In this document: positions 20,320 to 34,633 of the stretch, one piece after another
Layout of the letters: the number at the start of each line of letters is the position of its first letter
Numbering within the stretch: position 1 is the stretch's first letter
DNA from: Myxococcota bacterium
GTDB taxonomy: Bacteria; Myxococcota_A; UBA796; CAJQPC01
DNA: 44,793 nucleotides
Direction of reading: 5' to 3'
Assembly (NCBI GenBank): GCA_023150845.1
Contig: JAKLKD010000023.1
Coordinates: forward strand, 1-44,793
The notes under the pieces: model-generated
Seen by the model: only the letters and a program-made list of their open reading frames with translations
Database searches by the model: none
Told to the model about the DNA's origin: nothing
Program-made: the position numbers and the translations under genes

Positions 20320-20859
20320 TCAGGCCCGCGCCCGGCGGGCGGCGTCCCAGTGGAAGAGGTCCGCCTGAATCCACAAGAGCTTCGACCACGCCCGCGCCGC
20401 GGCGAATCGACGCTCGACGGGCAGGTCGAGCTCGGCCACGGCGCCGATGACCTGGTCGGTGATGAAGGCCAAGAGCCCGCTCACCTCGACGAGCGGCACG
20501 ACGATCCGGGGGTCGCCGCCGTCAGGGCCGTGGGCGCGGGCGACGTGGTCCAGGTAGACCGCGAGCTGGGCCTCGTCCCGAGGGCGCAAGATCGTGTCGA
20601 CGTAGGCCCGCAGGTGCACCGTGACCATCGCCGGAGGCAGGCCGTCAAAGTGCCGGGCGGTGTTGCTAAAGCCGAGCAGCCGCCCCTCGATGGCCACCAT
20701 CAGCGCGTCGAGCCACGGCGTGAGGTGGGGTCGAGAGGCGCGGATCAGCGCCCGATCGACCTCGGTGAGCCCGACAACCGCGGTCAGGTAGGCGACCCGG
20801 TAGGCCGGATCCACCTCAAGGCGGGCGACGTCGACGGCCTGGGGATCCACCGCGCTCAA
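20320..20859 (-). CDS. Protoglobin-domain protein
   Basis: A 179-residue protein that is one protoglobin/globin-sensor domain. It shows LTEVDRALIRASRPHLTPWLDAL early, LDHVARAH with the likely proximal haem His at 110, GDPRIVVPLVEVSGLL and the terminal block KLLWIQADLFH, all in family order. It should bind haem and a diatomic gas such as O2 and has no output domain. The start is uncertain: TTG at 20859 overlaps the ACP stop (TTGA), while a GTG at 20850 is also in frame; neither has a clear Shine-Dalgarno. It is the last gene of the ketosynthase/ACP operon and ends seven bases from the convergent halogenase gene, which suggests oxygen sensing or supply for that pathway. Confidence 0.75.
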   Translation of the reverse strand: MSAVDPQAVDVARLEVDPAYRVAYLTAVVGLTEVDRALIRASRPHLTPWLDALMVAIEGRLLGFSNTARHFDGLPPAMVTVHLRAYVDTILRPRDEAQLAVYLDHVARAHGPDGGDPRIVVPLVEVSGLLAFITDQVIGAVAELDLPVERRFAAARAWSKLLWIQADLFHWDAARRARA

Positions 20860-21152
20860 CGAGCGCCCTGGGCGCGCAGGTAAGCGACGATGCTGCCGAT
20901 GGAGGCGTAGATCTCGCGGGTCTCCTCGCCGTCGGGCATGCGCACGCCGAGCGTCCGCTCCAGCTCGACGGCGAGCTCAATGGCGTCGACGCTGTCGAGC
21001 TTCATCCCGCCATCCGCCCACAGCGGCGCGTCGTCGGCGAGGTCCGCCGGGGTGATGTCGGTGAGCAGGAGCGCGCGGATGAGCGCCTCCTTCACCTTAA
21101 GCGTCAGGGTGTCTGGGGCCTCGTCGGCGGGATCTACGGCGGTGGGGCTCAT
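20856..21152 (-). CDS. Acyl carrier protein
   Basis: A 98-residue acyl carrier protein. The phosphopantetheine attachment site is Ser 54 in KLDSVDAIELA, followed by helix II-III features VELERTLGVRMPDGEE and a C-terminal helix SIGSIVAYLRAQ. It would carry the growing chain for the neighbouring ketosynthases and dehydratases. The first 20 residues are an acidic extension. The ATG at 21152 lacks a Shine-Dalgarno sequence; 24 bases separate it from the chain-length-factor gene upstream. It overlaps the protoglobin gene at its 3' end. Confidence 0.85.
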   Translation of the reverse strand: MSPTAVDPADEAPDTLTLKVKEALIRALLLTDITPADLADDAPLWADGGMKLDSVDAIELAVELERTLGVRMPDGEETREIYASIGSIVAYLRAQGAR

Positions 21153-21176
21153 CGGAGGATCATAGCCCAGGCCCCC

Positions 21177-21926
21177 TCAGGGCGCGAAGCTCACCCGGGC
21201 GCGGAGCGCGCCGCCGACGCCGAGCTCACCGACCACGCCGCCGCGCCCGCCCTCGGCGAGGGCCACCACGCCGATCAAGGCCCCGACGCCGACCTCACCA
21301 AAAGCTGCGCTCGGTCGTAGTTCAGAGGCGCCCTCCTCGACGGTGACCCGCGGGCCGACGCCGCCTCGGGTGAACAAGAGCGCCGCGGCCACCCCGCCCG
21401 GGGGCTTGGCCCCGGCCGCCTGAAGCACAGGATGAGGCGCCTCAGCGCCCACGACGAGCACCGTCTCGCAGGCGCCCAGGGCGAGGAGGGTCTCCGCCCG
21501 GAGCAAGGCCGCGCCGCCCGCCCCGCGCCCGGCGAAGGTCTCCACCGAGGCGCAGCGTCCGGGCGCGGCCTGCTCGGCGGCGATGGAGAGGATCGCCCCC
21601 GCCGTGCTCGGCAGCGAGGCCTGAAACGCCGCCGCGCTGAGCTGCCCCGGGCCCTCCTCCGCGAGCCGCCCCAAGAAGCGCCCGGTGGCGTCGAGCTCAC
21701 CCAGGCCGCAGGCCCAGAGCAGGATCGTCGGCTCTTGGGGCAGCAGCGGCAGCCCGACGCTCAAGGCGAGGCGGCCCAAGGCCCCCGCGCGCCGCCAGAG
21801 GCCCGAATCGACCCCCTCCGGGCGCGGCGGCTCGCTGAGGGGGCCCAGGCGCTCCCCGGCCTCGATGGCCGCGAGCCACGCCGAGGTTGGCGCCCCGGCG
21901 AGGCCGCGCCAAGCCTTGAGGATCAT
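21177..21926 (-). CDS. Beta-ketoacyl synthase-like chain-length factor
   Basis: A 249-residue ketosynthase-like protein lacking the active-site Cys. The region where ketosynthases have C-x-x-G reads VETFAGRGAGGAALLRAETLL, and no His pair of the HGTGT or GHTxGA type is present, so it should be a non-condensing partner (chain-length factor) of the ketosynthase encoded next to it. Other recognisable blocks are QLSAAAFQASLPSTAG and ETVLVVGAEAP. It is short compared with chain-length factors of type II polyketide systems (about 400 residues) but matches the small N-terminal-like ketosynthase proteins of aryl-polyene clusters. The ATG at 21926 overlaps the upstream stop (ATGA), indicating translational coupling and a 1:1 heterodimer. 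Confidence 0.75.
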   Translation of the reverse strand: MILKAWRGLAGAPTSAWLAAIEAGERLGPLSEPPRPEGVDSGLWRRAGALGRLALSVGLPLLPQEPTILLWACGLGELDATGRFLGRLAEEGPGQLSAAAFQASLPSTAGAILSIAAEQAAPGRCASVETFAGRGAGGAALLRAETLLALGACETVLVVGAEAPHPVLQAAGAKPPGGVAAALLFTRGGVGPRVTVEEGASELRPSAAFGEVGVGALIGVVALAEGGRGGVVGELGVGGALRARVSFAP

Positions 21927-23032
21927 GGCGCCTCCCAAGAGAGCGCCACGCCGCCGCCGCCGAACCCGAAGGCCAAGGACAAGGCCCGCGGCGCTGAGAG
22001 CCGACGAGGCCCGCCGCGCACCACGTCGAGGCCGGCCACGGGCGACTCCGTGCCCGCCGACGGCGGGATCCAGCCGCCGCCCAAGGAGCAGATCGCCACC
22101 GCCGCGCCCAAGGCCCCGGCGGCGCCGAGCGTGTGCCCCAAGGCGCCCTTCGTGCCCGAGACCGGCACCCCGGGCAGGCTCGCCGAGATCGCCTCGGCCT
22201 CGACCTGATCGTTCTGCGGGGTGCCCGTCGCGTGGGCGTGGACCCAGCCGATCGGGTCACGCCGCCCGCCCAAGGCCCCGGCGATGGCCGCCCGCGCCCC
22301 ACGCCCGTCTGGGCGCGGCGCGACGAGGCTGAAGCTCTCCGACACGCCGCTGGCGCCGCTCAAGGTCGCCAGGGCGCGCCGAGGTCCGCCCGCGGGCTCC
22401 AGCAGGATCGCCGCCGCACCTTCGCCGAGGTTGAGGCCCCCACGATGAAGGTCCATCGGGCGGCAGGGGCCCTGGGCCTGGAGCGAGAGCGCGCCGAAGC
22501 CATACCAGAGGAGCTGGCTGAGCGCGTCGACGCCGACGGCGAGGGCGGCGGCGGCTCGCCCGCAGCGCACAAGATCCGCGGCGACCTGGACGGCGACGGC
22601 GCCCGCCGTACACGCCGTGGAGACCGCGAGGGCAGGGGGCTTCGCGCCCAAGGCCTCACGCACCCGCTCTGCCGGTCGGTCGGGGAGCTGCGGCCAGAGC
22701 AGCGAAGGCGCCGCGAAGGGCTCACCCCGATGCCACGCACACCAGGCCGCCTCCCCCTCGGCCATGTCCGCCGCGCTCGTCCCGCAGACCACCCACATAC
22801 CATCCGCCGACCGGCCGCCCAGGGCTTGCTGTGATGCAGCAATGGCCATCTCCGAGGCCGTGCGCGCAGGGCCCTTGACCTGGCCCGCCCACCAGTCTTG
22901 GTCGGGGCGCGCCGGGGGCCACGGGCCGGGGCCCAGGCCACGCTCGCCGTCGAGCAGGCGCCGGTAGAGCTCCTCCGGGCTCGACCCCAAGGCCGAGACC
23001 ACGCCCAGGCCGGTGACCACGACCGGGATCAC
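21923..23032 (-). CDS. Beta-ketoacyl-ACP synthase (KAS II type)
   Basis: A 369-residue condensing enzyme with a complete triad: Cys about 141 in VSTACTAGAVAV, His about 267 in HATGTPQNDQVEAEA and Lys 295/His 300 in GTKGALGHTLGAAG. The N-terminus IPVVVTGLGVVSALG and the glycine-rich LSLAFGFGGGG near the end are typical of KAS II. The start at GTG 23032 is preferred to GTG 23038 because AGGGGG lies seven bases upstream and it gives a GTGA overlap with the preceding dehydratase gene. It would elongate ACP-bound chains with the chain-length factor encoded immediately downstream. Sequence and context suggest an aryl-polyene-like ketosynthase rather than housekeeping FabF. Confidence 0.88.
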   Translation of the reverse strand: MIPVVVTGLGVVSALGSSPEELYRRLLDGERGLGPGPWPPARPDQDWWAGQVKGPARTASEMAIAASQQALGGRSADGMWVVCGTSAADMAEGEAAWCAWHRGEPFAAPSLLWPQLPDRPAERVREALGAKPPALAVSTACTAGAVAVQVAADLVRCGRAAAALAVGVDALSQLLWYGFGALSLQAQGPCRPMDLHRGGLNLGEGAAAILLEPAGGPRRALATLSGASGVSESFSLVAPRPDGRGARAAIAGALGGRRDPIGWVHAHATGTPQNDQVEAEAISASLPGVPVSGTKGALGHTLGAAGALGAAVAICSLGGGWIPPSAGTESPVAGLDVVRGGPRRLSAPRALSLAFGFGGGGVALSWEAP

Positions 23033-23295
23033 GGCCACGCCCCCTGGACCTGCGCCACGCCCCAGGCGCAGACCCCGTGGGGCCCCTCAACGGTGAACTC
23101 CACGTCCTCGCCGCGGGGGGTGAGCGTGAGGCGCGCGGTCTCTCCCGGGCGAAGGGGCGCGGTGAACCTCACCCGGCGCACGCCGACGAGCCCCGGCAGC
23201 GCCTCTTGCACCCAGGCCAAGAGCGCCGCCCCCGGCACCAGCGGGTCGCCGTCGAAGTGCCCCGGGACGTCCACAAAGGCCCGCTCCGTCGTCAT
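23029..23295 (-). CDS. Short FabA/FabZ-like hotdog dehydratase
   Basis: An 88-residue hotdog-fold protein. The block PGHFDGDPLVPGAALLAWVQEAL matches the FabA/FabZ/ApeI 3-hydroxyacyl-ACP dehydratase motif, including the catalytic His in GHF, and is followed by VRFTAPLRPGE and the strand VEFTVEG. It is shorter than usual (about 110-150 residues), lacking the N-terminal strand region. It probably removes water from 3-hydroxyacyl-ACP, perhaps as a heterodimer with the second hotdog protein just upstream, whose stop overlaps this start (ATGA). Confidence 0.72.
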   Translation of the reverse strand: MTTERAFVDVPGHFDGDPLVPGAALLAWVQEALPGLVGVRRVRFTAPLRPGETARLTLTPRGEDVEFTVEGPHGVCAWGVAQVQGAWP

Positions 23296-23636
23296 CCAGA
23301 CACCTTGAGGGTGAGCCGCGCCTCGAGCACCCCCGGGAGGCGCACGAAGACCCGCGGCAGCGGAGGCTCGGCGCGCTCGACCTCCAGCTCCGGGACGAGC
23401 CTTGTGCCCCCGGCGACCGTGCGCGCGGCGAGGCGCAGCTCCCGCACCTCGACGAGCACCCCGGCGCGGGCGGCGGTGGACGACGCTAGCGCGCGCCCCG
23501 CGAGCTGCGCGGCCAGCTCGACGAGGGCGCAGCTCAGGTACACCCCGTCGTGGGCGAGGGGATGATCCATCGGCAGCACCACGGCGCCGTCCTCCTCCAC
23601 CTCAAACCGGGCGGGCGGGGTGTGTGGGATGCCCAC
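23292..23636 (-). CDS. ApeP-like hotdog dehydratase subunit
   Basis: A 114-residue hotdog-fold protein resembling ApeP-type 3-hydroxyacyl-ACP dehydratases of aryl-polyene clusters. It shows LPMDHPLAHDGVYLSCALVE followed by a helix (LAAQLAGRALA) and strands VREVRELRL-like and LVPELEVERA. Asp-His in MDHPL marks the expected active-site loop. The GTG at 23636 has AGGAGG eight bases upstream, located in the 15-base gap after phaR, so this is the first biosynthetic gene of the operon but is very likely on the phaR transcript. A heterodimer with the next hotdog protein is inferred from their overlap and small size. Confidence 0.68.
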   Translation of the reverse strand: MGIPHTPPARFEVEEDGAVVLPMDHPLAHDGVYLSCALVELAAQLAGRALASSTAARAGVLVEVRELRLAARTVAGGTRLVPELEVERAEPPLPRVFVRLPGVLEARLTLKVSG

Positions 23637-23651: not shown

Positions 23652-24197
23652 TCACCCCTTCTTCAGCCGCTTCTCCAGCGCGTCGAGCCGCGCCCGCAGG
23701 GCGTCAACCTCACCCGCCTCACCGCTCGGCGGGGCCTTCGGGGGCGGCGGGGCCTCCTCGGGCTCGGGCTCGGGCTCCGGGGCGGCCTGGCTCGTGGACG
23801 GCGCGCTGGGCTTCGGGGTGAAGCGCTCGAAGGGGTTCGCGCCGGGAGGCATGCCCGCCGTGGCGAGGCCCATCACCTGCTCCACCCGGTCGAGCTGAGT
23901 GTGCAGCAGCTCCAGCCCGGCGATGAACTGCTTCCGCACGAGGGCCTGAACGGGGTCGTCGGAGCTCAGGCGAATGAGGCGGCGCAGCATGGCCGTCGGC
24001 AGGAGCGCGTCGCCTTTGAGCACCTCCAGCACCACCTGCATGAGCACCTCGTGGGTGAGGTCCTCGTTCGTCTTCGCGTCCACCACCTGCACGGCCTCGC
24101 CCGCGCGGATGATCGCCGCGAGCTCGTCGAGGTTGATGTACCGGGACCGGGCGCTGTCGTAGAGGCGGCGGTTGCCGTACTTCTTGATGATGACCAT
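23652..24197 (-). CDS. phaR: PHA synthesis repressor PhaR
   Basis: A 181-residue regulator with the PhaR/PHB-accumulation DNA-binding domain at residues 1-65: IKKYGNRRLYDSARSRYINLDELA and VVDAKTNEDLTHEVL match the family almost position for position. The second region (about 70-115) fits the PHA-binding helical part. A Pro/Glu linker and a C-terminal coiled coil (DALRARLDALEKRLKK) follow. In known systems PhaR binds both nascent PHA granules and DNA, repressing the phasin gene and itself until granules form. It is divergent from the phasin gene. Unusually, only 15 bases separate it from the downstream hotdog gene, so it also leads the ketosynthase operon. Confidence 0.93.
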   Translation of the reverse strand: MVIIKKYGNRRLYDSARSRYINLDELAAIIRAGEAVQVVDAKTNEDLTHEVLMQVVLEVLKGDALLPTAMLRRLIRLSSDDPVQALVRKQFIAGLELLHTQLDRVEQVMGLATAGMPPGANPFERFTPKPSAPSTSQAAPEPEPEPEEAPPPPKAPPSGEAGEVDALRARLDALEKRLKKG

Positions 24198-24395: not shown

Positions 24396-24629
24396 ATGAC
24401 CAACCTCTTCAACGTCAACAACAACGCCCGCTCCTTCGCGCACGAGATGATCGCCGCCCAGAAGCAGGTGTTCGAGTGGCAGATGGCGCAGCTCAAGGTG
24501 ATGGACCAGCAGTCCCGCGCGTTCACCGACGCCGCCCGCGCTGGCGTCGAGATGTCCCAGAAGACGATGCTCGACATGAGCAAGACCCTGGTCGACACCT
24601 TCATGCCCGCCGAGGCCGCCAAGGCCTGA
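24396..24629 (+). CDS. Small phasin
   Basis: A 77-residue, almost entirely helical amphipathic protein (ARSFAHEMIAAQKQVFEWQ, MAQLKVMDQQSRAFTDAAR, MSQKTMLDMSKTLVDTFMP) resembling small phasins, the proteins that coat PHA granules and control their size. The ATG at 24396 has GGAG six bases upstream. It is the first gene after the PHA promoter and is separated from the synthase genes by a large hairpin, a usual arrangement when the granule coat is needed in excess. Identity as a phasin rests on helical character and position between phaR and the synthase genes. Confidence 0.72.
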   Translation: MTNLFNVNNNARSFAHEMIAAQKQVFEWQMAQLKVMDQQSRAFTDAARAGVEMSQKTMLDMSKTLVDTFMPAEAAKA

Positions 24630-24646
24630 GCCGAGCCCTTCCCCCC

Positions 24647-24692
24647 ATGGCCCTGTCGAAGCGCGTGACTCCCTCGCGCCCGACAGGGCCAT
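24647..24692 (+). terminator. Large hairpin between phasin and phaE-like gene
   Basis: A perfect 12-bp inverted repeat (ATGGCCCTGTCG at 24647-24658, CGACAGGGCCAT at 24681-24692) encloses a second 5-bp stem (GCGCG/CGCGC at 24661-24665 and 24675-24679). No T-run follows. It may be a partial terminator or a 3'-end stabiliser that raises phasin mRNA over the synthase mRNA. Confidence 0.65.
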
Positions 24693-24726
24693 CTCCCGTT
24701 CTGACCCCCACGTCTTTGGAGCTCCC

Positions 24727-25215
24727 ATGAGCGACACCTCCCCCGACCTCTCCAAGCTCTCCGGCGAGCTGTACCGCCAGTGGGAGAAGGGCATGGCCCA
24801 GTGGTGGGATCAGGTCCTGGAGTCCCCGGCCTTCCTCTCGGGCATGGGGCAGAGCCTCTCCGGCCAGGCCCAGGCCCGCGCCAACTACGAGCAGGCCGTC
24901 GATCAGACCCTTGAGCAGCTCCACATCCCGAGCCGCAAAGACTTCATCCGGCTCACCCGCGTCGCCACGATGCTTGAGGACAAGCTCCTGAGCCTGGAGG
25001 ACAAGCTCCTCGCCGTGAGCGACCAGCTCGCCGCCCAGGAGCGCGAGACGCTCCTCGCCCGGGTGGACGCCGCCGAGGCCCGTATCGAGGCCCGTGAGCA
25101 GCTCGCCGCGCTCCAGGCCCGCCTCGATGCCTTGGAGGGCAAGGCCGCCCCCGCCGCCACCGAGCCCGCTGAGCAGAAGGGCCGCGCCCGCCGCGGCAAG
25201 GAGGAGTCGGCATGA
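24727..25215 (+). CDS. Short PhaE-like PHA synthase subunit
   Basis: A 162-residue protein resembling the PhaE subunit of class III PHA synthases but less than half its usual length (about 350). Tell-tale parts are the N-terminal YRQWEKGMAQWWDQVL, the central HIPSRKDFIRLTR, typical of the PhaE/PhaR-subunit region that contacts PhaC, and a long coiled coil (LEDKLLSLEDKLLAVSDQ to ALQARLDALEG) ending in a basic tail. GGAG lies five bases before the ATG. Its stop overlaps the first phaC start (ATGATG), so it is made together with the synthase and presumably activates or docks it on granules. Confidence 0.75.
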   Translation: MSDTSPDLSKLSGELYRQWEKGMAQWWDQVLESPAFLSGMGQSLSGQAQARANYEQAVDQTLEQLHIPSRKDFIRLTRVATMLEDKLLSLEDKLLAVSDQLAAQERETLLARVDAAEARIEAREQLAALQARLDALEGKAAPAATEPAEQKGRARRGKEESA

Positions 25216-26231
25216 TGACGCTCTTCGACCGCACGGCGACCACCGCCCGTTACCTCAGCCAGCGCCCCGCGGAGCGCCTGCGCATCGGCGTCACGCCGCA
25301 CCAGGTCATCTTCCGCCAGAACAAGGCCACCCTGCGCTACTTCGCGCCGACCCACCCCCAGGGCCAGCAGCACACGCCGATCTTCGTGTCGATGCCGCTG
25401 ATCAACAAGTGGGAGGTCTGGGACCTGCTCCCCGGCCGCTCGGTGATGGAGGACCTCACCGCCGCGGGCGTGCCGGTCTACCTGCTCGACTGGGGCACCC
25501 CCGGCCCTGAAGACCAAGGCGTCACCTTGGGCAAGCTCGTGGACGACCTGCTCGTGCGTATGTTTGACCGCGCCCGGCGCCACGCGGGCCAGGCGCTCGA
25601 CGCCGTGGGTTACTGCGTCGGCGGCACCTTCTTGGCCGTGCACCTCTCCCGCCATGAGAGCGCCCGCCGCGCGGCGTTTGTGTGTACGCCCATCGACTTC
25701 CACAGCTCCGGCCGCCTCGCGGTCTGGGCCCAGCCCTCGTGTTTCCCCGTAGACGCCGCCATCGACGGCTTCGGCAACTACCCCGGCCGGGTCATCCGCG
25801 AGGCCTTCTCCTGGCTGCGCCCCGAAGGACAGACCCGCAAGTGGGTCGGCCTCTGGGAGAAGATCGAGGATCCCGAGTTCCGCGACCTCTGGGCGGCCCT
25901 GGAGAAGTGGAACACCGACGCCGTGGACTTCCCCGGCGAGGCCTATCGGGAGTACGTCCGGCGCTGCTACTTTGAGAACACGCTCCTCAAGCACGTCGGG
26001 GATCCCGGGGTCTGGATCTTGGACGGCAAACCCGTCGATCTCCAGAACGCCAAGATCGAGGCGCACTCCATCGCCGCCGACCGCGACCACATCGTCCCCC
26101 CGGCCGCGGCCCACGCCCTGGCTGATGCCTGGGGCGGGGCGGTCACCACCAAGACGGTTAAAGGAGGCCACGTCGCCATCGCGGCGAACGGCGTGATCTC
26201 CAAGAGCCTCCTGGAGTGGATCCGGCGATGA
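25212..26231 (+). CDS. phaC: PHA synthase, PhaC type (first copy)
   Basis: A 339-residue alpha/beta-hydrolase-fold polymerase of class III PhaC type, which links hydroxyacyl-CoA units into polyester. The lipase-like box is GYCVGG with catalytic Cys 135; Asp 292 (DRDHIVPP) and His 320 (KGGHVAI) complete the triad. YLLDWGTPGPED and the cap-region residues also agree with the family. Translation can start at ATG 25212 or 25215; 25212 overlaps the phaE-like stop by four bases. It overlaps the second synthase gene by four bases (ATGA). Confidence 0.88.
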   Translation: MMTLFDRTATTARYLSQRPAERLRIGVTPHQVIFRQNKATLRYFAPTHPQGQQHTPIFVSMPLINKWEVWDLLPGRSVMEDLTAAGVPVYLLDWGTPGPEDQGVTLGKLVDDLLVRMFDRARRHAGQALDAVGYCVGGTFLAVHLSRHESARRAAFVCTPIDFHSSGRLAVWAQPSCFPVDAAIDGFGNYPGRVIREAFSWLRPEGQTRKWVGLWEKIEDPEFRDLWAALEKWNTDAVDFPGEAYREYVRRCYFENTLLKHVGDPGVWILDGKPVDLQNAKIEAHSIAADRDHIVPPAAAHALADAWGGAVTTKTVKGGHVAIAANGVISKSLLEWIRR

Positions 26232-27334
26232 GCACCCCCCTCGTAGATCCCTTCGCCCCCTTCGGCGCCTTGTTGTCTGGGTTTGAGGGGCTCTACGAGC
26301 TGGAGCGCATCCGCCGCGGCATGTTTGTGCACGCCACGGCGCCGCGCCCCGACGTGGGGGTCACGCCCCACGTCATCGTGCATGAGCAGGACAAGCTGAA
26401 GCTGCGCTACTACGCGCCCAAGCGGGATGAGGGCCTGCCCCCGGTGGTGCTGGTCCCCTCGCTCATCAACCGGGCGTACATCCTCGACTTAGAGGCCGAC
26501 CGCAGCATGGTCGCGAGCCTCGCGGGGATGAACCACCCGGTCTACCTCGTGGACTGGGGTGAGCCCGGCCCTGAAGACGCCGACGAGGACGTGGCCTACG
26601 TCGTGCTGGAGCTCCTCGACCGCGCCGTGCGCCGGGCCTGCCGCCACGCCCGGGCCCCCAAGGCCGCGGTGTTCGGCTACTGCATGGGCGGCACCTTGGT
26701 GGCGATGTACGCCGCCTTACGCCCCGAGCGGCTCCTGGGCTTCACGACCCTGAACGCCCCGGTGCACTTCGCCGAGGCCGGGCGCTTCCGCGAGTTCGTG
26801 AGCCCTGACGTGGTCAACGTGGACGAGGTCTTCCCCGCGGGCACCCTCGTCCCCACCTGGCTGATGAAGCCGGTGTTCCAGATGCTCGACCCCATGGGCA
26901 GCTTCACGAAGTACGCGGCCATCGAGGAGGCCGCCGCCGACCCCAAGAAGCTCAGCCGCACCATGGCCCGGGAGCGCTGGCTGGAGGAGCACGTCCCCTG
27001 CGCCAGCGCCTTCTGCCGGGAGTTCGTCCGCCACGCCTACCAAGAGGACGCGCTCATCGCGGGGCGCTGGTCCTTAAACGGCGAGACCGTGCGCCTGGAG
27101 GACATCCGGTCCCCGGCGCTCATCGTCGTGTGTAAACGCGACTTCATCGCGCCGTCCCGGTCGGGCCTGCCGCTCTTTGAGCGCATCCAGTCCGCCGACA
27201 AAGAGCTCGTTGAGCCTGACGCCGGGCATATCGGCGTCGTGGTCGGCGCGACGGGGCCCCGCTACTTCTTCCCGCTGCTCGACCGATGGCTGCGGCGGAT
27301 CGCCAAGGGTGAGCCCCAGGCCCCGAAGGAGTGA
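26228..27334 (+). CDS. phaC: PHA synthase, PhaC type (second copy)
   Basis: A 368-residue PhaC-type polymerase paralogous to the preceding protein but clearly diverged. The triad is complete: Cys about 152 in FGYCMGGT, Asp about 305 in CKRDFIAP and His about 334 in DAGHIGVVVG, the last closely resembling class III PhaC (GHIG). YLVDWGEPGPED is shared with copy 1. The ATG at 26228 overlaps the upstream stop (ATGA). Two intact, adjacent PhaC-type genes with one PhaE-like subunit suggest a mixed enzyme complex or two synthases of different substrate range. Confidence 0.88.
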   Translation: MSTPLVDPFAPFGALLSGFEGLYELERIRRGMFVHATAPRPDVGVTPHVIVHEQDKLKLRYYAPKRDEGLPPVVLVPSLINRAYILDLEADRSMVASLAGMNHPVYLVDWGEPGPEDADEDVAYVVLELLDRAVRRACRHARAPKAAVFGYCMGGTLVAMYAALRPERLLGFTTLNAPVHFAEAGRFREFVSPDVVNVDEVFPAGTLVPTWLMKPVFQMLDPMGSFTKYAAIEEAAADPKKLSRTMARERWLEEHVPCASAFCREFVRHAYQEDALIAGRWSLNGETVRLEDIRSPALIVVCKRDFIAPSRSGLPLFERIQSADKELVEPDAGHIGVVVGATGPRYFFPLLDRWLRRIAKGEPQAPKE

Positions 27335-27338
27335 CGGC

Positions 27339-28805
27339 GTGAAGGCGACGACGAACTGGCTTGAGATGCACACGCGCTTTCGGCCCCAGGCCGAGGCGCT
27401 CTTTGACGTAGAGCAGGGCCGCCGCTGGACCTACGCCCAGCTCTACGAGGACAGCCTGCGCTGGGCGGGCCGCCTCGCGGCGATGGGGGTGGGCCCCGGC
27501 GACCGGGTGTCCTTGTTGGCCCACAACCGCGGCGACACCTTCGCCATCCTCTTCGCCTGCGCCGAGCGCGGGGCGATGCTCTGCCCGATGAACTGGCGCC
27601 TGAGCCCGGCGGAGCTCGCCTTCCAGATTCACGACGCCGAGCCCAAGGTGCTCCTCACCGACGCCACCTTCGCCGGGGTGGTCGAGGCGCCCCAGACCTT
27701 GCGCGTCGAAGACGGCCCCGACCACGCCCCGGAGGAGGGCCCCGGAAGCGCCTTGAGCGACCCCTGGGTGCTCATGTACACCTCGGGCACGACGGGCAAA
27801 CCCAAAGGCGCGCTCATCACGCACAACCAGCTCCACTGGAACGCCCTCAACACCTTCTTCGCCTGCGACCTCACCCCGCAAGACAGCACGCTGACCTTCA
27901 CGCCGCTGTTCCACACCGGCGGGCTGAACTCGCTCTCGACGCCGTTGTTGCACCGCGGCGGGAGGGTGGTGCTCACCCGCGGGGTGGACCCCGGCCAGGC
28001 CCTCCGGCTCATCGGCGAGGAGCGAATCACCCTGCTCATGGGCGTGCCCACCATCTTCCAGATGTTGGCGGACCACCCCGACTTTGAGCACACGGACCTC
28101 AGCTCCGTGCGGGACGCGCTCTGCGGCGGGGCGCCCTTAGGCGTCGAGCTCTGGACCCGATACTTACAGCGTAAGGTTCCTCTCCGCCAAGGCTTCGGCA
28201 TGACCGAGGTGGGCCCCAACTGCTTCTCGATGCCCCACGCCGCGAGCGAGGCGAAGATGGGCGCGGTGGGCAAGGCCATCCACCACGTCGCCATGCGGCT
28301 CGTGCGCCCCGACGGCGGCGAGTGTGCCGTTGATGAGGCCGGTGAGCTGGTGCTCGGCGGCCCGGCGGTGTTCGGCGGCTACTGGCGGCGGCCCGAGGCG
28401 ACGGCGTCGAGCCTACGCGACGGCTGGTTCTACACCGGCGACGTGCTCTCCCGAGACGCTGAGGGCTTCTTCTGGGTGCGCGGACGCGCCAAGGAGATGT
28501 ACAAGAGCGGCGGCGAGAACGTCTACCCGGCGGAGGTCGAGGCGGCGATCCTGTCGCTCCACGGCGTCGGGCAGGTCGCCGTGGTCGGCGTCCCCGATCC
28601 GCGCTGGGGCGAGGTCGGCGTGGCCTTCGTTGAGCCCGCGCCGGAGCATCACCTCACCGAGGCGGGCCTGCGTGAGGCGCTCAGCGGTCGCCTCGCCCGG
28701 TTCAAGATGCCCAAGCGGTTTATCCTGACGGTTAGCCTGCCCCGCACCGCCAGCGGCAAGATCGACAAGCCAGCGCTCACCCGCACTCTGGAGATGGAGA
28801 CATGA
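27339..28805 (+). CDS. Acyl-CoA ligase (AMP-forming)
   Basis: A 488-residue member of the ANL superfamily that would activate a free acid to its CoA thioester via acyl-AMP. Motifs are YTSGTTGKPKG (P-loop, residues about 145-155), FGMTEVGPN, the adenylate-binding GWFYTGDVL, the hinge VRGRAKEMYKSGGENVYPAEVE and catalytic Lys near the end in RTASGKIDK. Length is close to fatty-acyl-CoA synthetases with short N-terminal parts. The GTG at 27339 has AAGGAG seven bases upstream and lies four bases after the second synthase gene. In this operon it most likely makes hydroxyacyl-CoA or acyl-CoA for PHA synthesis from acids released by the downstream hydrolases. Confidence 0.88.
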   Translation: MKATTNWLEMHTRFRPQAEALFDVEQGRRWTYAQLYEDSLRWAGRLAAMGVGPGDRVSLLAHNRGDTFAILFACAERGAMLCPMNWRLSPAELAFQIHDAEPKVLLTDATFAGVVEAPQTLRVEDGPDHAPEEGPGSALSDPWVLMYTSGTTGKPKGALITHNQLHWNALNTFFACDLTPQDSTLTFTPLFHTGGLNSLSTPLLHRGGRVVLTRGVDPGQALRLIGEERITLLMGVPTIFQMLADHPDFEHTDLSSVRDALCGGAPLGVELWTRYLQRKVPLRQGFGMTEVGPNCFSMPHAASEAKMGAVGKAIHHVAMRLVRPDGGECAVDEAGELVLGGPAVFGGYWRRPEATASSLRDGWFYTGDVLSRDAEGFFWVRGRAKEMYKSGGENVYPAEVEAAILSLHGVGQVAVVGVPDPRWGEVGVAFVEPAPEHHLTEAGLREALSGRLARFKMPKRFILTVSLPRTASGKIDKPALTRTLEMET

Positions 28806-29362
28806 CGCGTTCCTTCACCCTGCTGCTCCTCGCCCTCGGCGCCTGCACCGGGGATCCCTACAAAGACGACGGCCCGACCGACGACAGCACCACCACGGAT
28901 GACAGCACGGTCACCGATGACTCCACCGCGGACGACAGCGCGGATCCCGTCATCGACTCCAAGCTCGTCGGGTCTTGGCTCTCCGAGGGTGAGAACCTGA
29001 GCCCGCTCTTCGCGGGCCGCTTCTTCAAGTACGTCTCGGTGAGCGCCGAGTTTAAGGCCGACGCGAGCTACGTCGTGCAGGCCGTCGATCAGGCGGGCTC
29101 GACCTACGACTTCACGGGCAGCTTCGTCATCGACGAGTCCACGTCCCCGGCGACCATCGTGCTCACCCAGGCGACGCCGAGCGTGGTGACCGCTGAGGGC
29201 ATCTACGCCATCGACGAGGCGGACCTGCTCACCTACGAGGTCGTGCAGACCGATCCCAACCCCAACGGCTTCGTCGCGCCGACGCCGGAGACGGGCTTCG
29301 GCTCGACCTCGGGCCCCGGCCTGAACCCCGGCGACAACGTCCAGAAGTACGTGCGCCAGTGA
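28802..29362 (+). CDS. Lipoprotein with Asp/Thr/Ser spacer
   Basis: A 186-residue lipoprotein. The signal peptide ends in lipobox LGAC near residue 15, followed by a spacer of Asp, Ser and Thr (TDDSTTTDDS and similar) to about residue 48. The folded part starts at KLVGSWLSEGENL and consists of alternating beta-strands (ASYVVQAVDQAG, TYDFTGSFVIDE, PATIVLTQATP), consistent with a lipocalin-like or small beta-barrel binding domain. The ATG at 28802 overlaps the ligase stop (ATGA). A role in presenting or carrying hydrophobic acids at the outer membrane would fit the operon, but no ligand site can be identified. Confidence 0.7.
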   Translation: MTRSFTLLLLALGACTGDPYKDDGPTDDSTTTDDSTVTDDSTADDSADPVIDSKLVGSWLSEGENLSPLFAGRFFKYVSVSAEFKADASYVVQAVDQAGSTYDFTGSFVIDESTSPATIVLTQATPSVVTAEGIYAIDEADLLTYEVVQTDPNPNGFVAPTPETGFGSTSGPGLNPGDNVQKYVRQ

Positions 29363-30999
29363 GCCGCCTCGCCGCCTGCACCCTCCTCCCGCTGCTCTGG
29401 CCGTCGTTGGCCCTGGCCCAAGACCAGGCCGCGCCGCTGGAGAGCCGCGCCGCCGCGGCGGAGGAGGAGCTGGCGGCGATGGCCGCGCCGCCCGAGAGGA
29501 GCGCGCCCGAGGCCACGCCTGAGGTGAGCGCGCCCGCGCTGCCCGACGTGCTGCCGAAAGCGCCCAAGCCCGACACGGGCCTCAAGTTTTTGGGGCTCAT
29601 GCAGACGAAAGCCACGGCCTCGAACCTCACGAGCACGAACCCGTTCTTGGACGGCCAGGTGCTCGGCACCTTAGGCGGCACGAACGGGCTCACCGTGGGT
29701 GAGGGGCGCAGCGCCGCCGTCGAGCAGCGCCTCACGGGCTTCTTCACCTACGCCCCGCCGGTGCTCAGCGGCCGGGCGAGCCTCACCGCGGGCTTTGAGG
29801 TGGACTACGCCTTCGGCGACCAGTCCTACGTCTCCGGCGGCAACGTCGGCGGGGCCTTCGGCGCCGACGCGGTGAACCTCCAGACCCGCCGCCTCATGGC
29901 GACGATCAAGCCGAACCTCGGCGACCAGCTCCGCCTGAGCCTCGTGCTCGGCCAGCAGTTTGTGTCGGATTCGGTGAACGACCCCGCCGTCTCGGGCCCG
30001 GACGAGCTGTTCCGCTCCGGCGGCAAGCTCATGTTCTTCGGCTCCGAGGCCACGGGCGTCAGCGCCTACGCCCGGCTGCGCAACGGCTGGGGCGACGTGG
30101 TGAAGGGCCGACTCGGCGCCTACACCCTCTATGAGCGTGGCACCTACGAGCAAGACGACGTGTGGCTCGTGATGGCCGACGTGCAGGTGAACCCGCTCTT
30201 CGCGACCCACTTTGGCGCGCACCTCTGGACGCTCCGCGACCGCAGCGGCGGCAACCAGGGCATCTTCGGCATCGGCCCGACCTCGTCCTTGGCGGAGCTG
30301 CAAGGCGCCGCCCGCCTCGACCTCCGCCCTGAGGGCGAGACGATCGCCCCGGCGGTGAGCGCGGATCTGTACTGGGTGACCTTCGACGCCGCCTTTAACC
30401 GCGACCTGCGCCTCTCGCCGATCGGCGCGACGGCGATGGTCACCGCCAACACCGGCACGCTCTACGCCGACGGCGCGGACAACGTCGCCGTGCGCGGTGC
30501 CCTGGCCAACGCCGAGGTCCGCCTGCGTTACGCCCCCGGCGAGGGCAGCGTCGCCCGGCTGGAGGCCCTCTGGTCGAGCGCCGATGACGCCGACCCGCTG
30601 ACCTACTCCGGCGTGATCACCGGCAACAGCTACGGCATCGTCGGCGCGATCTACGCGAGCCACGGCACCCTGCTCTTGTTCTCGGATCTGTTCTCGATCA
30701 ACCGTATGGCGTCTGTGGTGTATGACGTCTCCGGCGGCGGCGGCGGCGTGCGCGCCTTGACCGGCAGCGTCGGCTACGACCTCGTGCCCGGCCGGGTGAC
30801 CGTCGCCGTGGGCGGCGGCCACGCCCGGGACGGCTCCGGGTCGCCCTACGGCAGCGAGCTGAACCTCCGTGTGGTGACCGAGCCCTACCTCTTCATGCGG
30901 GTGGGTCTCTGGGGCGCCATGATGACCCCTGGCGAGGCCGCGCTCGTCGATCAGACGGCCTACGCGGCTTACCTCGGCTTCGACTGGCTGGTGTTCTGA
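29359..30999 (+). CDS. Outer-membrane beta-barrel protein
   Basis: A 546-residue exported protein. A signal peptide (LAACTLLPLLWPSLALAQ) ends near residue 21, a Pro/Ala-rich segment reaches about residue 75, and the rest is a long run of amphipathic strands with aromatic ends typical of an outer-membrane barrel (for example ASLTAGFEVDYAFG, LRLSLVLGQQFV, VSADLYWVTFDAAF). It ends in FDWLVF, the C-terminal Phe expected for BAM-assembled barrels. The GTG at 29359 overlaps the lipoprotein stop (GTGA). It is probably a porin or transporter; its place between a CoA ligase and secreted hydrolases suggests uptake of hydrolysis products. Confidence 0.75.
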   Translation: MSRLAACTLLPLLWPSLALAQDQAAPLESRAAAAEEELAAMAAPPERSAPEATPEVSAPALPDVLPKAPKPDTGLKFLGLMQTKATASNLTSTNPFLDGQVLGTLGGTNGLTVGEGRSAAVEQRLTGFFTYAPPVLSGRASLTAGFEVDYAFGDQSYVSGGNVGGAFGADAVNLQTRRLMATIKPNLGDQLRLSLVLGQQFVSDSVNDPAVSGPDELFRSGGKLMFFGSEATGVSAYARLRNGWGDVVKGRLGAYTLYERGTYEQDDVWLVMADVQVNPLFATHFGAHLWTLRDRSGGNQGIFGIGPTSSLAELQGAARLDLRPEGETIAPAVSADLYWVTFDAAFNRDLRLSPIGATAMVTANTGTLYADGADNVAVRGALANAEVRLRYAPGEGSVARLEALWSSADDADPLTYSGVITGNSYGIVGAIYASHGTLLLFSDLFSINRMASVVYDVSGGGGGVRALTGSVGYDLVPGRVTVAVGGGHARDGSGSPYGSELNLRVVTEPYLFMRVGLWGAMMTPGEAALVDQTAYAAYLGFDWLVF

Positions 31000-31964
31000 T
31001 GCGACGCTCTCCGCTCATCCGCCTGATCCTGCCGCTCACCCTGGGCCTCGTCGTGTCGGGCTGTGTGCCCCGTTACGCGGAGCTGCCGCCGATGAGCCCC
31101 GCCGAGCTGACCACCCCCTTGCCGCTGCAGCACGCCGTCGTGAACGGCGTGAAGGTCGCCTACGTCGACAGCGGCGGCGCCGGGGAGGTGATCGTGCTGA
31201 TTCACGGCCTGTCCTCGACCATCGGCTTCTGGGAGCGCCAGGTGCAGCCCTTGGCCGCTGCCGGGTACCGGGTGCTCGCCCTCGATCTCCCGGGCTTCGG
31301 CGCTTCAGGCCGTCCCGACGCGCCCTACACCCCGCCTTGGTACGCCGCGCTCATCCGCGCTTGGCTCGACGGCCTGGGCGTGGCCTCGGCCCACCTCGTC
31401 GGGCACAGCATGGGCGGCCAGATCGCCATCACCCTCGCCCTTGAGACGCCCGACCGTGTAGAGAGCCTCATTCTGAGCGCCCCGGCGGGTATTGAGCGCT
31501 TCACGCCCGGCGAGGGCGAGTGGATGAAGACCTACTGGACGGAGACGCGCACGCTGGAGGCCAGCGAGCAGGACGTGCGGGCGAACTTCACGATGTTGGC
31601 GTTCAACCGCTACGATGAGGGTGTGGAGCGCCTTATCCAAGAGCGCGTCCGGATGTCGAGCACGCCCGAGTTTAAGGGCACCTCCGTCGCCGTGTCTCGC
31701 TGCGTGGCGGGCATGGTCGACCACCCCGTCGCCAACCGGCTGGGGGAGCTCGGGTCGCCCACCTTGATCATCTTCGGCGAGGACGATCACATGATCCCCA
31801 ACCCGATCTTTCATGGGGGCCGCACGAGGACGGTCGCCGAGGCCGGGCAAGAAGGAATCCCCGGAAGCCGGCTCGTCTTGATCCCCAAGGCGGGCCACAC
31901 CGTACACCACGACGCCCCCGACGCCTTCAACGCCGCCGTCTTGGAGTTCTTGGAGTCCACATGA
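30999..31964 (+). CDS. Alpha/beta-hydrolase lipoprotein (esterase-like)
   Basis: A 321-residue alpha/beta hydrolase anchored as a lipoprotein (lipobox VVSGC, Cys about 22). The oxyanion-hole block is VLIHGLSS (67-73), the nucleophile elbow GHSMGG with Ser 137, the acid Asp about 262-263 in FGEDDHM and the His about 300 in PKAGHTVHHD. This is a complete catalytic triad of the lipase/esterase type. Its start overlaps the barrel gene stop by one base (TGATG). It should hydrolyse small esters or oligomers in the periplasm or at the cell surface. The natural substrate cannot be read from the sequence. Confidence 0.85.
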   Translation: MRRSPLIRLILPLTLGLVVSGCVPRYAELPPMSPAELTTPLPLQHAVVNGVKVAYVDSGGAGEVIVLIHGLSSTIGFWERQVQPLAAAGYRVLALDLPGFGASGRPDAPYTPPWYAALIRAWLDGLGVASAHLVGHSMGGQIAITLALETPDRVESLILSAPAGIERFTPGEGEWMKTYWTETRTLEASEQDVRANFTMLAFNRYDEGVERLIQERVRMSSTPEFKGTSVAVSRCVAGMVDHPVANRLGELGSPTLIIFGEDDHMIPNPIFHGGRTRTVAEAGQEGIPGSRLVLIPKAGHTVHHDAPDAFNAAVLEFLEST

Positions 31965-33775
31965 ACCCGATGTTCTGGCTGCTCCCCTCTCTCCTCGTCT
32001 CTCAGGCGATGGCGACGGAGGGATACGACCCCTCCGCCCCGTTGAAGACCTTCACCGGCAAAGAGACCTACACCCAGGACGGCGTCTCGAAGCTCTGGAG
32101 CGCTGTCGAGCGCCATGACGACCCCGACCGGCGTCTGTTTGGGCCCCTCGAGTACAACACCCTCACGGCCTGGCCTGAAGAGGCCGACTACGCCCCGTGG
32201 ATCGCCGATCTCTTCGGCAGCACCGAGCCCGACTCCTCCACGTTCTTGCTGCACATCGGCGCGAACGAGGCCACGGCGACGGGCACGCCGATCCTGTTTG
32301 TGCACGGCGCCGGGGACAACGGCAGCCGCGGCTTCGCGGGCCTGAGCATCCACATGGACACCCGCGGCCGCCCGGTGTACGCGCTGACCTTCCCGAACGC
32401 CCAGCAGGACATGTTCCAGCAGGCGGAGATCGTCGCGGACGCCATCGCCCGGGTGAAGGAGCGCACCGGCGCGAAGAAGGTGGACCTCGTCGGCCACAGC
32501 AAGGGCGGCATCGCCGTGGCGATCTACATCTCCAACGCCAAAGACGCGGAGTGGGGCGACACGGTCTACAGCGAGGTCGGCACCGTCTACCGCGACGACG
32601 TCCGGAAGGTTGTGCTCATGGGCACCCCTCTGGGCGGCATCGACACCGGCTTCCGCTGGCCCTCGGCGAACATCCTCTCTTTAGACACCGAGACGGCCCT
32701 CGCCCCGACCTCCTGGAGCGAGTACTACCCCTACGGCACGGGCTACTACTGGATCTACGAGGATCTCAGCGCCCAGGACTTCTTCCCCGGCGACGGCGAC
32801 CTCTTCCCCGGCCAGGACCAGCTCCTCGCCCGCCACGACGAGTACCCCTTGCCCGGCAGCCTGCCTTGGCTGGGCAGCTACGCCTTCCAGATCGACTGGT
32901 ACACGTCTTATGAGGGCGGCTTCGGGTACTACACCTACAGCGAGGGCATCGACGCGGCCATTGAGTCGGGGGACCACCTCATCTCCCGCCTCGCCGCCAA
33001 CGGCGCGGACCCCGCGCTCCAGATCTACCTCCTCGGCGGCGAGAACCCCCTGATGCCCAACGGCACTGAGGACTTCTTGGCCCTGATGTTCGGCGAGGCC
33101 TTCGTCGACATGGCCACGGCCACCTCGGATCAGTGGGCGGCGTTCTACGCGAGCCTCGTCGGCGACGGCCTCGTCTCCGTTGGCATCACTGAAGAGGAGG
33201 TCCAGGGCCTCGCCCAAGGCAAGCTGATGATCGGCGAGGTCACCGGGCCCAGCGACGGCCTGGTGTTCACGACGAGCGCGCTCAACGAGGACGCCCTCAA
33301 CGCCCGCGGCGCGGTCATCGTCGAGGCCCGGGCGGCGAACTTGAGCCACCTCGACCTGCTCTACGCCTCCCCGGTCACCGCCGCGGTGCTCGAGGCCGAG
33401 GCCGCCGCGGACCCCGTCGAGGACGGCTGGAAGCTCGCCTTGGCCCGCCGTTACGCCGAGGAGGACACCATCGGCTGGGTGCGTGAGGCCCTTGCGGACG
33501 AGGCCACGGAGCCTGAAGACACCGGCGGCCCCGACGACAGCGGCGCCCCCGACGACAGCGCCGAGCCCGACGACAGCGCCGAGCCCCAAGAGACCGGCGA
33601 CGACGACAGCGGCGTTCCCGAGGACAGCGAGCCCGCCGACGACACCGGCGAGGACGACCCCGGCAAGGCCTGCTCTACGGGCGGCGCGGGCGCGGACGCG
33701 GGCGCGGGCGCAGCCCTCGGCGTGATGCTCGCGGCGGCGGCCCTGGTGAGCCGTCGGCGGCGCCCGTCGGCGTGA
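31961..33775 (+). CDS. Secreted lipase-like hydrolase with MYXO-CTERM tail
   Basis: A 604-residue exported hydrolase. A short signal peptide ends near residue 18. The hydrolase domain shows FVHGAGDNG (114-121) as oxyanion loop and the nucleophile elbow GHSKGG with Ser 180, followed by KVVLMGTPLGG; this pattern resembles class 2 lipases, a group whose fold also includes the PHB depolymerase PhaZ7. A roughly 60-residue Asp/Ser/Glu/Pro-rich stalk (about 505-565) leads to a C-terminal sorting signal: a Cys, a Gly/Ala-rich hydrophobic helix and RRRR at the end, as in MYXO-CTERM proteins, implying surface display. Start overlaps the previous stop (ATGA). It ends the operon; ester or polyester cleavage outside the cell is inferred. 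Confidence 0.82.
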   Translation: MNPMFWLLPSLLVSQAMATEGYDPSAPLKTFTGKETYTQDGVSKLWSAVERHDDPDRRLFGPLEYNTLTAWPEEADYAPWIADLFGSTEPDSSTFLLHIGANEATATGTPILFVHGAGDNGSRGFAGLSIHMDTRGRPVYALTFPNAQQDMFQQAEIVADAIARVKERTGAKKVDLVGHSKGGIAVAIYISNAKDAEWGDTVYSEVGTVYRDDVRKVVLMGTPLGGIDTGFRWPSANILSLDTETALAPTSWSEYYPYGTGYYWIYEDLSAQDFFPGDGDLFPGQDQLLARHDEYPLPGSLPWLGSYAFQIDWYTSYEGGFGYYTYSEGIDAAIESGDHLISRLAANGADPALQIYLLGGENPLMPNGTEDFLALMFGEAFVDMATATSDQWAAFYASLVGDGLVSVGITEEEVQGLAQGKLMIGEVTGPSDGLVFTTSALNEDALNARGAVIVEARAANLSHLDLLYASPVTAAVLEAEAAADPVEDGWKLALARRYAEEDTIGWVREALADEATEPEDTGGPDDSGAPDDSAEPDDSAEPQETGDDDSGVPEDSEPADDTGEDDPGKACSTGGAGADAGAGAALGVMLAAAALVSRRRRPSA

Positions 33776-33799
33776 CATCCTCTGCGGCGGCGCTATAAT
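33772..33799 (+). promoter_or_regulatory. Promoter of Uma2-family gene
   Basis: GTGACA (33772-33777), a 16-base spacer and TATAAT (33794-33799), the best -10 in the window, lie just before the ATG at 33818. The -35 overlaps the stop codon of the preceding lipase gene. Confidence 0.6.
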
Positions 33800-33817: not shown

Positions 33818-34633
33818 ATGGCGCCGCTCCGCAAGATGCTCGCTCCGGGCCCGTTCCGGGCCGACCAGCTCTCCTCAGGCACGCCCTACGAGCTGTCGCG
33901 GGGCCACTCCATCCTCTGCGCGCCGACGGGCGCTCGGGGATCGGGGCCTCAGCTCGCGGGCGGCTACGTTATCGCCAGCGACCCCGCCGTCGCCGTCGCG
34001 GGGGTTGACCTCGGCTTCTCTCCCGAGCCGGGCACCCTGCGCGCCCCCGACGTGGCGGTGTACGGAGATCCTTCGGAGCTGCACAAGGCGGGCTGGGCGA
34101 AGACGGCGCCGCCGCTGGCCGTGGAGTACGCCGATCGCGGCGGCGACGAGGCGGAGCTTCTGGAGCGCATCAGCGACCTCCTCCAGCACGGCACCCGCTA
34201 CGTCTGGGTGGTGCGGCTCGTCGGCCCACGCCGCGTCGAGGTCTACGAGCCCGATCGCCCGATGCGGGTGGTCACCGCTGAAGAGCCGCTCATCGCCGAG
34301 GGTGTGCTCACGAACCCGGTGAACGTCGACGCGCTCTACGACCCGGACCACGCCGAGGCCGCGGTCTTTCGGAACCTGCTCAACCGGCGCGGGGTGGCGA
34401 GCTTAGAGGCGCTGCGTGAGGAGGCCCTCGCCGAGGGTGAGGCGGCGGGTGAAGCCAAGGGCGAACGTGAGGCGCTCCAGCGCGCCCTGCGGGCGATCCT
34501 CGGCGCTCGTGGCCTGTCCTTGACCTCCGCCCAAGAGGCCCTCATCGACGCGGCGGAGCGCGCGGCCCTCGACGGCTGGATCGTCCGCGCGGCGGTCTCG
34601 ACCAGCGCCGACGCCCTCTTCAGCCCGAGCTGA
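33818..34633 (+). CDS. Uma2-family (DUF820) PD-(D/E)XK nuclease-like protein
   Basis: A 271-residue protein with a Uma2-type restriction-endonuclease-like fold: GYVIASDPAV, APDVAVYG, PLAVEYADRGGD, SDLLQHGTRYVWVV and VEVYEPDRP follow the family order, with acidic residues in PDVAV and AVEYAD as candidates for the metal site. The usual Lys after the second acid is not obvious, so activity is uncertain. The last 85 residues form a charged helical extension (AEGEAAGEAKGEREAL, ALRAILGARGL) like those on Rpn/PD-(D/E)XK proteins. RBS is GAGG, about nine bases before the ATG. Uma2 proteins are abundant in myxobacteria and cyanobacteria and are mostly uncharacterised. It overlaps the convergent gene's end by 14 bases. 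Confidence 0.75.
   Translation: MAPLRKMLAPGPFRADQLSSGTPYELSRGHSILCAPTGARGSGPQLAGGYVIASDPAVAVAGVDLGFSPEPGTLRAPDVAVYGDPSELHKAGWAKTAPPLAVEYADRGGDEAELLERISDLLQHGTRYVWVVRLVGPRRVEVYEPDRPMRVVTAEEPLIAEGVLTNPVNVDALYDPDHAEAAVFRNLLNRRGVASLEALREEALAEGEAAGEAKGEREALQRALRAILGARGLSLTSAQEALIDAAERAALDGWIVRAAVSTSADALFSPS

Follow-up and report, generated by a model that had tools for sequence, protein, structure and literature searches.

Extracellular breakdown of polyesters and intracellular synthesis of PHA are usually handled as separate systems and, to our knowledge, surface hydrolases are normally encoded apart from pha operons. The synthesis genes closest to those considered here are found in class III phaEC operons, e.g. 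of Rhizobium hidalgonense (L178), in which a PhaE-like gene directly precedes that of a short class III-type PhaC. Related degrading enzymes are PhaZ7, an extracellular native PHB depolymerase with a lipase-like fold, and Lip1 of Burkholderia vietnamiensis, an exported lipase-fold enzyme that acts as extracellular mcl-PHA depolymerase and is encoded in a lipase/chaperone cluster; the authors of the latter study warn that a lipase annotation alone is insufficient to imply this activity (PMC13101487). PhaZBd of Bdellovibrio is an extracellular-type depolymerase which feeds the predator on the PHA of its prey (PMC7174725). Within the Myxococcota, PHA granules accumulate in the predatory Bradymonas sediminis during predation (PMC7460792) and PHA genes have been reported for most bins of the phylum from activated sludge (PMC11821767). 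A limited search of the open-licence literature on PHA in Myxococcota, on PhaZ7, on the uptake of PHA and on operons that combine phaC with a lipase gene returned no locus of the kind described below.

The analysed window is an entire contig of 44.8 kb (G000:C401) from the genome of an uncultured Myxococcota bacterium (7.1 Mb in 444 contigs). Between positions 24396 and 33775, nine plus-strand ORFs with high third-position GC succeed one another, encoding a phasin-like protein, a PhaE/PhaR-like protein, the synthases PhaC-A and PhaC-B, an AMP-forming acyl-CoA ligase, a lipoprotein, an outer-membrane barrel, an alpha/beta-hydrolase lipoprotein (Abh) and a MYXO-CTERM lipase-like enzyme (MyxLip). 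The locus resembles the class III phaEC operons in that a candidate PhaE-like gene directly precedes a short class III-type phaC, but adds a second, divergent PhaC, the ligase, the barrel and two exported hydrolases. MyxLip shares with PhaZ7 a lipase-like fold and a weak match at the lipase box; in contrast to PhaZ7, it lacks full-length similarity and has a MYXO-CTERM anchor, a large insert and a linkage to phaC. It resembles Lip1 as an exported lipase-fold enzyme, whereas its gene accompanies a PHA synthase. For PhaZBd, the accessible part of the account describes degradation and mentions no linkage to synthase or uptake genes (PMC7174725). Judged from its genes, the locus would join a pha operon to a module for scavenging esters at the surface, a new combination of known kinds of components with a predicted function. 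We consider it, with a probability of roughly 0.55, to be a scavenge-and-store unit for a PHA-like or oligoester substrate.

Operon organization and the two synthases

The arrangement as a putative plus-strand operon of nine genes with mostly 1–4 bp overlaps, as put forward in the preliminary description, was borne out. Six of the eight junctions overlap, those of phaE/phaC-A, phaC-A/phaC-B, ligase/lipoprotein, lipoprotein/barrel and abh/myxlip by 4 bp each and that of barrel/abh by 1 bp; the other two are spaced by 97 bp (phasin to phaE) and 4 bp (phaC-B to the ligase, whose GTG start at 27339 is preceded by GAAGGAG). In consensus scans, none of the promoter matches fell within the operon, and no terminator was convincing. 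The translational coupling of the genes counts in favour of a scavenge-and-store unit.

Upstream and in divergent orientation lies a gene for a PHB_acc-type (PhaR) regulator (23652–24197, minus strand; PF07879, E=2.9e-25), which is kept beside the operon in most relatives. Neither this regulator nor the PhaE-like gene had been picked out in the earlier description. The first operon gene (24396–24629, plus strand, as are all further genes of the operon) encodes a protein of 77 residues that matches no Pfam or NCBIfam family; position, size and the recurrence of similar small ORFs at the same place in about 11 loci suggest a phasin-like granule protein. The second (24727–25215), adjoining phaC-A, matches PF09712 and TIGR02132 with E=9e-4, i.e. 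below cut-off, and is a candidate PhaE/PhaR-like synthase subunit with a homologue in 27 relatives.

PhaC-A (25212–26231) and PhaC-B (26228–27334) match TIGR01836 with E=1.3e-58 and 1.8e-61, respectively. Class III is the best-scoring class for both, but as their scores of 199 and 208 bits lie under the cut-off of 365 bits, we label them only class III-like. The catalytic triads (C135/D292/H320 in PhaC-A and C152/D305/H334 in PhaC-B) and the Gly-x-Cys-x-Gly-Gly box are invariant in 25 PhaC-A and 27 PhaC-B sequences, and PhaC-B aligns with the C. necator PhaC structure 5hz2 (E=5e-34) with matching triad residues. Both are predicted to be PHA synthases, and the invariant triad rules out PhaC-B as a degenerate copy. 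Within the order they form separate clades (support 99/97 for PhaC-A and 100/100 for PhaC-B), whose tentative deep placement among the known classes involves long stems. Apart from these two proteins, the genome gave no PhaC_N match. PhaC-A is missing from the loci of four relatives (G002, G015, G046 and G057); PhaC-B and PhaE therefore represent the constant core. A search with TIGR01829 for a dedicated acetoacetyl-CoA reductase gave at best 236 of the 302 bits set as threshold. Near ten of the loci there is a gene for a 3-ketoacyl reductase-type SDR, in several of them directly behind the lipase gene.

Linkage of synthase and envelope genes among relatives

The preliminary description had singled out the combination of synthase and hydrolase genes and named gene order in relatives as a check, which upheld it. 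In 20 relatives, which represent four families of the order, the genes from phaE and phaC-B through ligase, lipoprotein, barrel and abh to myxlip form a colinear string on a single contig, with about 45–65% amino-acid identity; 17 of these also possess phaC-A. Outside the class, the same string with one PhaC recurs in three families (f24, f38 and f46; loci L147, L148 and L150). The genes on either side are shared within the genus at most, a downstream Uma2 gene being common to the congener only and the tested upstream ketosynthase/ACP genes (fatty-acid-synthesis-like) being matched in none of the relatives; background synteny is therefore ruled out as cause of the conservation. A rearranged version of the string is present in a further family. 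Rearranged sets with PhaC, Abh, a lipoprotein and a different AlgE-like barrel are found in L060 (G014), L093 and L146, and the barrel of L060 matches TIGR04551 with E=5e-108. Judged by these loci, the linkage from synthase to lipase is ancient.

Strong PhaC matches were obtained in 30 of 57 relatives. Of these 30, 28 have the barrel, which is absent from all of the remaining 27 (p=3e-14); MyxLip is present in all 30 and in three of the 27, two of these three being fragments (p=4e-13). Both p-values overstate the case because related genomes are treated as independent, and the scattered presence and absence together with the rearranged loci is the better argument.

It is conceivable that no metabolic relay connects the two parts and that synthase and envelope modules only share a starvation or feast regulon, the hydrolases serving general nutrition. 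Such a modular organization would agree with G015, where lipoprotein, barrel and abh genes stand beside a TetR-type gene on another contig, away from PhaC (L163), with G054, where synthase and hydrolase genes are on different contigs, and with other phyla, in which the lipase family is linked to PhaC also without barrel or Abh. The near-perfect match in presence and absence with PhaC, the overlapping coupled genes and the retention of the same set in rearranged loci nevertheless render this explanation improbable.

In four lineages the locus is joined by a Na+/solute symporter of one family (39–61% identity; L038, L054, L060 and L150), which fits an import function. The only SSF gene found in the present genome is a homologue of this symporter (58%) but is located on another contig, unlinked to the operon. 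Only 8 of the 57 relatives possess the symporter, and two of these lack PhaC. We count this distribution against the scavenge-and-store unit; as an obligatory partner the symporter is ruled out.

Ligase, barrel and putative surface hydrolases

The AMP-forming acyl-CoA ligase (27339–28805; PF00501, E=3e-84) has fatty-acyl/feruloyl-CoA synthetases as closest solved structures (8weu and 8wev, E about 1e-111), and by this kinship lipids or other acids would fit equally well as its substrates. It is followed by a predicted lipoprotein (28802–29362) with the lipobox LGAC, a Thr/Asp/Ser-rich linker and a homologue in 22 loci.

The barrel (29359–30999) produced no Pfam match, PF13372 included, and its sequence found no match in the PDB. 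Its AlphaFold model (pLDDT 73, pTM 0.77) was assigned by Foldseek to the alginate export barrel AlgE (best 3rbh, E=3.8e-20, TM about 0.53/0.67), which fills the first 16 ranks and is followed by MOMP and Occ carboxylate channels. On the basis of this model, the protein is predicted to have an AlgE-like outer-membrane fold; it differs from AlgE in sharing only 12% identity with it and in having no recognised alginate genes nearby. AlgE is an exporter, which counts against certainty about inward transport through the barrel. Hydroxyacids or oligomers from the cell's own PHA might accordingly leave through it and be trimmed at the surface, a scenario also compatible with profile searches of this genome, which yielded neither a TIGR01849-type intracellular PHA depolymerase nor a PF10503 esterase. 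However, the acid-activating ligase and the importing symporter family point inwards, and high-polymer PHA is water-insoluble and cytosolic, so that we judge such an export highly improbable.

Both hydrolases carry export signals in the order of the window. Abh (30999–31964; PF00561, E=2e-31) has the lipobox VSGC and the triad S137/D263/H300, which is kept in 23–24 of 24 sequences; in L050 its 3' end is frame-shifted. MyxLip (31961–33775; PF01674, E=8e-6, and domain matches to PF01674/PF00561 with E about 1e-6) has the triad S180/D432/H463, invariant in 24 sequences. Its C-terminus consists of a KACSTGG Cys motif, a hydrophobic transmembrane helix and an Arg-rich tail of the RRRRRPSA type, with nearly invariant Cys and Arg, and scores 17 of 20 bits with the MYXO-CTERM model, i.e. 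below cut-off. Proteins of this type are anchored at the cell surface through myxosortase (PMC11980579). The signal peptides of MyxLip and of its homologues were judged by eye and by hydropathy; within the order of the window they are remarkably short. We infer from these features that MyxLip and Abh are putative exported ester hydrolases.

In profile searches MyxLip matched class-2 lipases (E=2.5e-11), while a match to PhaZ7 (E=7e-4) was confined to about 27 residues at the lipase box. With the PhaZ7-type model NF050060 it reached 24 bits over 30 residues at a cut-off of 450 bits, which rules out membership in that family, and a search with NF050089 gave generic alpha/beta-hydrolase matches only. 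MyxLip is closer to class-2 lipases than to any PHA depolymerase, which counts against a scavenge-and-store unit operating on PHA. Its structural model is poor in the lid region (pLDDT 62) and too weak for further conclusions.

Homologues with 28–39% identity are encoded in MAGs named Eremiobacterota, Wallbacteria, Riflebacteria/Ozemobacter, Desulfotomaculum, Syntrophomonadaceae, Cyanobacteria/Tanganyikabacteria and others. When loci of 8 kb or more are counted, strong homologues outside the order are accompanied by PhaC on 22 of 29 loci, as against 0 of 19 for weakly matching lipases (p=7e-8). The N-terminus of the Bacillota homologues (L102, L104, L110, L112 and L115), whose genes adjoin phaC/phaE, has no signal peptide, while the forms of Myxococcota, Wallbacteria, Ozemobacter and cyanobacteria have an N-terminal signal peptide or lipobox. 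This pattern fits a lipase family that is cytosolic in Bacillota and exported in diderms. Since the lipase accompanies the PHA synthase in its cytosolic as well as in its exported form, PHA or its oligomers would most simply be the family's substrate.

The lipase folds with their best matches to class-2 lipases, the kinship of the ligase to fatty-acyl-CoA ligases and the PHA synthesis from fatty-acid beta-oxidation proposed for the related predatory Bradymonabacteria (PMC7460792) can also be combined differently: the enzymes might act on lipids of prey or debris, the fatty acids passing a FadL-like barrel and a FadD-like ligase, and beta-oxidation intermediates feeding PhaC. Yet the recurrent neighbours include no recognisable gene for beta-oxidation, for an R-hydratase or for FadL, the barrel is AlgE-like, and a signal-free lipase beside phaC, as in Bacillota, would be odd for an enzyme of external lipids. 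Furthermore, the synthases look like class III enzymes, which usually produce short-chain polymers. We thus regard a lipid-based route as unlikely, albeit worth serious consideration, and PHA or an oligoester is favoured as the probable substrate.

Proposed scavenging and storage route

Gene content, intact triads, conservation and co-occurrence form the observed basis for reading the locus as a scavenge-and-store unit. Further points in its favour are the SDR genes near ten loci, the PHA accumulation of a predatory relative (PMC7460792) and the mcl-PHA depolymerase activity of Lip1 (PMC13101487). Cleavage of an external ester followed by uptake, CoA activation and storage is the simplest sequence that gives every component a role, and we propose the following scenario, in which the substrate, the specificity of the ligase, the direction in which the barrel transports, regulation and enzyme activities are inferred. 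Surface-anchored MyxLip and Abh would act outside the cell on a polyester, an oligoester or another ester, most likely PHA or hydroxyacyl oligomers, and the released acids would cross the outer membrane via the AlgE-like barrel and the inner membrane via a carboxylate transporter, in some relatives perhaps the symporter encoded in the locus. The ligase would then convert the acids to acyl-CoA, which the PhaC-A/PhaC-B/PhaE synthase together with the phasin would store as PHA, the PhaR-type regulator presumably controlling the storage genes. Of this route, already outlined in the preliminary description, the conserved linkage has strong support, the full triads and the export signals stand and the symporter fits import; as a whole, the route is partly supported.

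A more far-reaching interpretation, possible but somewhat doubtful at present, would be a locus dedicated to scavenging and restoring polyester, a counterpart to polysaccharide utilisation loci, at whose core stands an unnamed multi-phylum family of lipase-fold PHA hydrolases with linkage to PhaC, which stays in the cytosol of Bacillota and has been transferred to the surface in diderms. If the proposed function is true, extracellular polyester breakdown and intracellular PHA synthesis would be joined in one heritable unit of Myxococcota, and synteny would have led to a new candidate family of PHA hydrolases for bioplastic degradation. It would also provide a mechanism for the observation that Bradymonas, a predator, becomes filled with PHA as it feeds (PMC7460792).

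Flanking regions of the PHA operon

A compact gene set on the minus strand (20856-23636) lies immediately beyond the divergent PHB_acc-type regulator and comprises two ketosynthase genes (21177-21938 and 21923-23038), an acyl carrier protein gene (20856-21152), one ORF resembling MaoC and one further, small ORF. This ketosynthase/acyl carrier protein set was not found next to the PHA locus in relatives. At the opposite end, a near-consensus sigma-70 promoter-like site on the plus strand (33772-33799; GTGACA-16-TATAAT, 11/12) is located directly 3' of the lipase gene and 5' of a Uma2-family ORF (33818-34633).

Variant loci and record names

A second locus of the relative G014 (L062:7154-10741) contains three ORFs in a row, encoding a ligase related to that of the operon (47%), a ketoacyl-synthase-III-like protein and a hydrolase with distant similarity to PhaC (29%). 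In one relative, the lipoprotein and barrel genes are separated by the insertion of a further lipoprotein gene, which encodes an FGE-sulfatase domain (L044:6968-8026, minus strand). The genome G015 carries lipoprotein, barrel and a second alpha/beta-hydrolase gene as a separate unit (L163:8052-11720), which adjoins a TetR-type regulator and lies apart from the PHA synthase. The Myxococcota-type PHA locus is also present in MAG records that bear the name Klebsiella pneumoniae or Bifidobacterium breve (L070, L073, L076, L089, L095); these records match genomes of the window's order, and their titles look wrong.

PHA depolymerases and lipase homologues

No PHA depolymerase of the TIGR01849 or PF10503 type was found in the genome holding the window, where PHA synthases are present, and an NF050089 search of this genome matched only generic alpha/beta-hydrolases. 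In several other phyla, phaC/phaE adjoin homologues of the lipase gene (L102, L103-L106, L108, L111-L113, L116, L117, L120-L122). These linked homologues, which are not assigned to any specific Pfam or NCBIfam family, may constitute a new group of PHA hydrolases.
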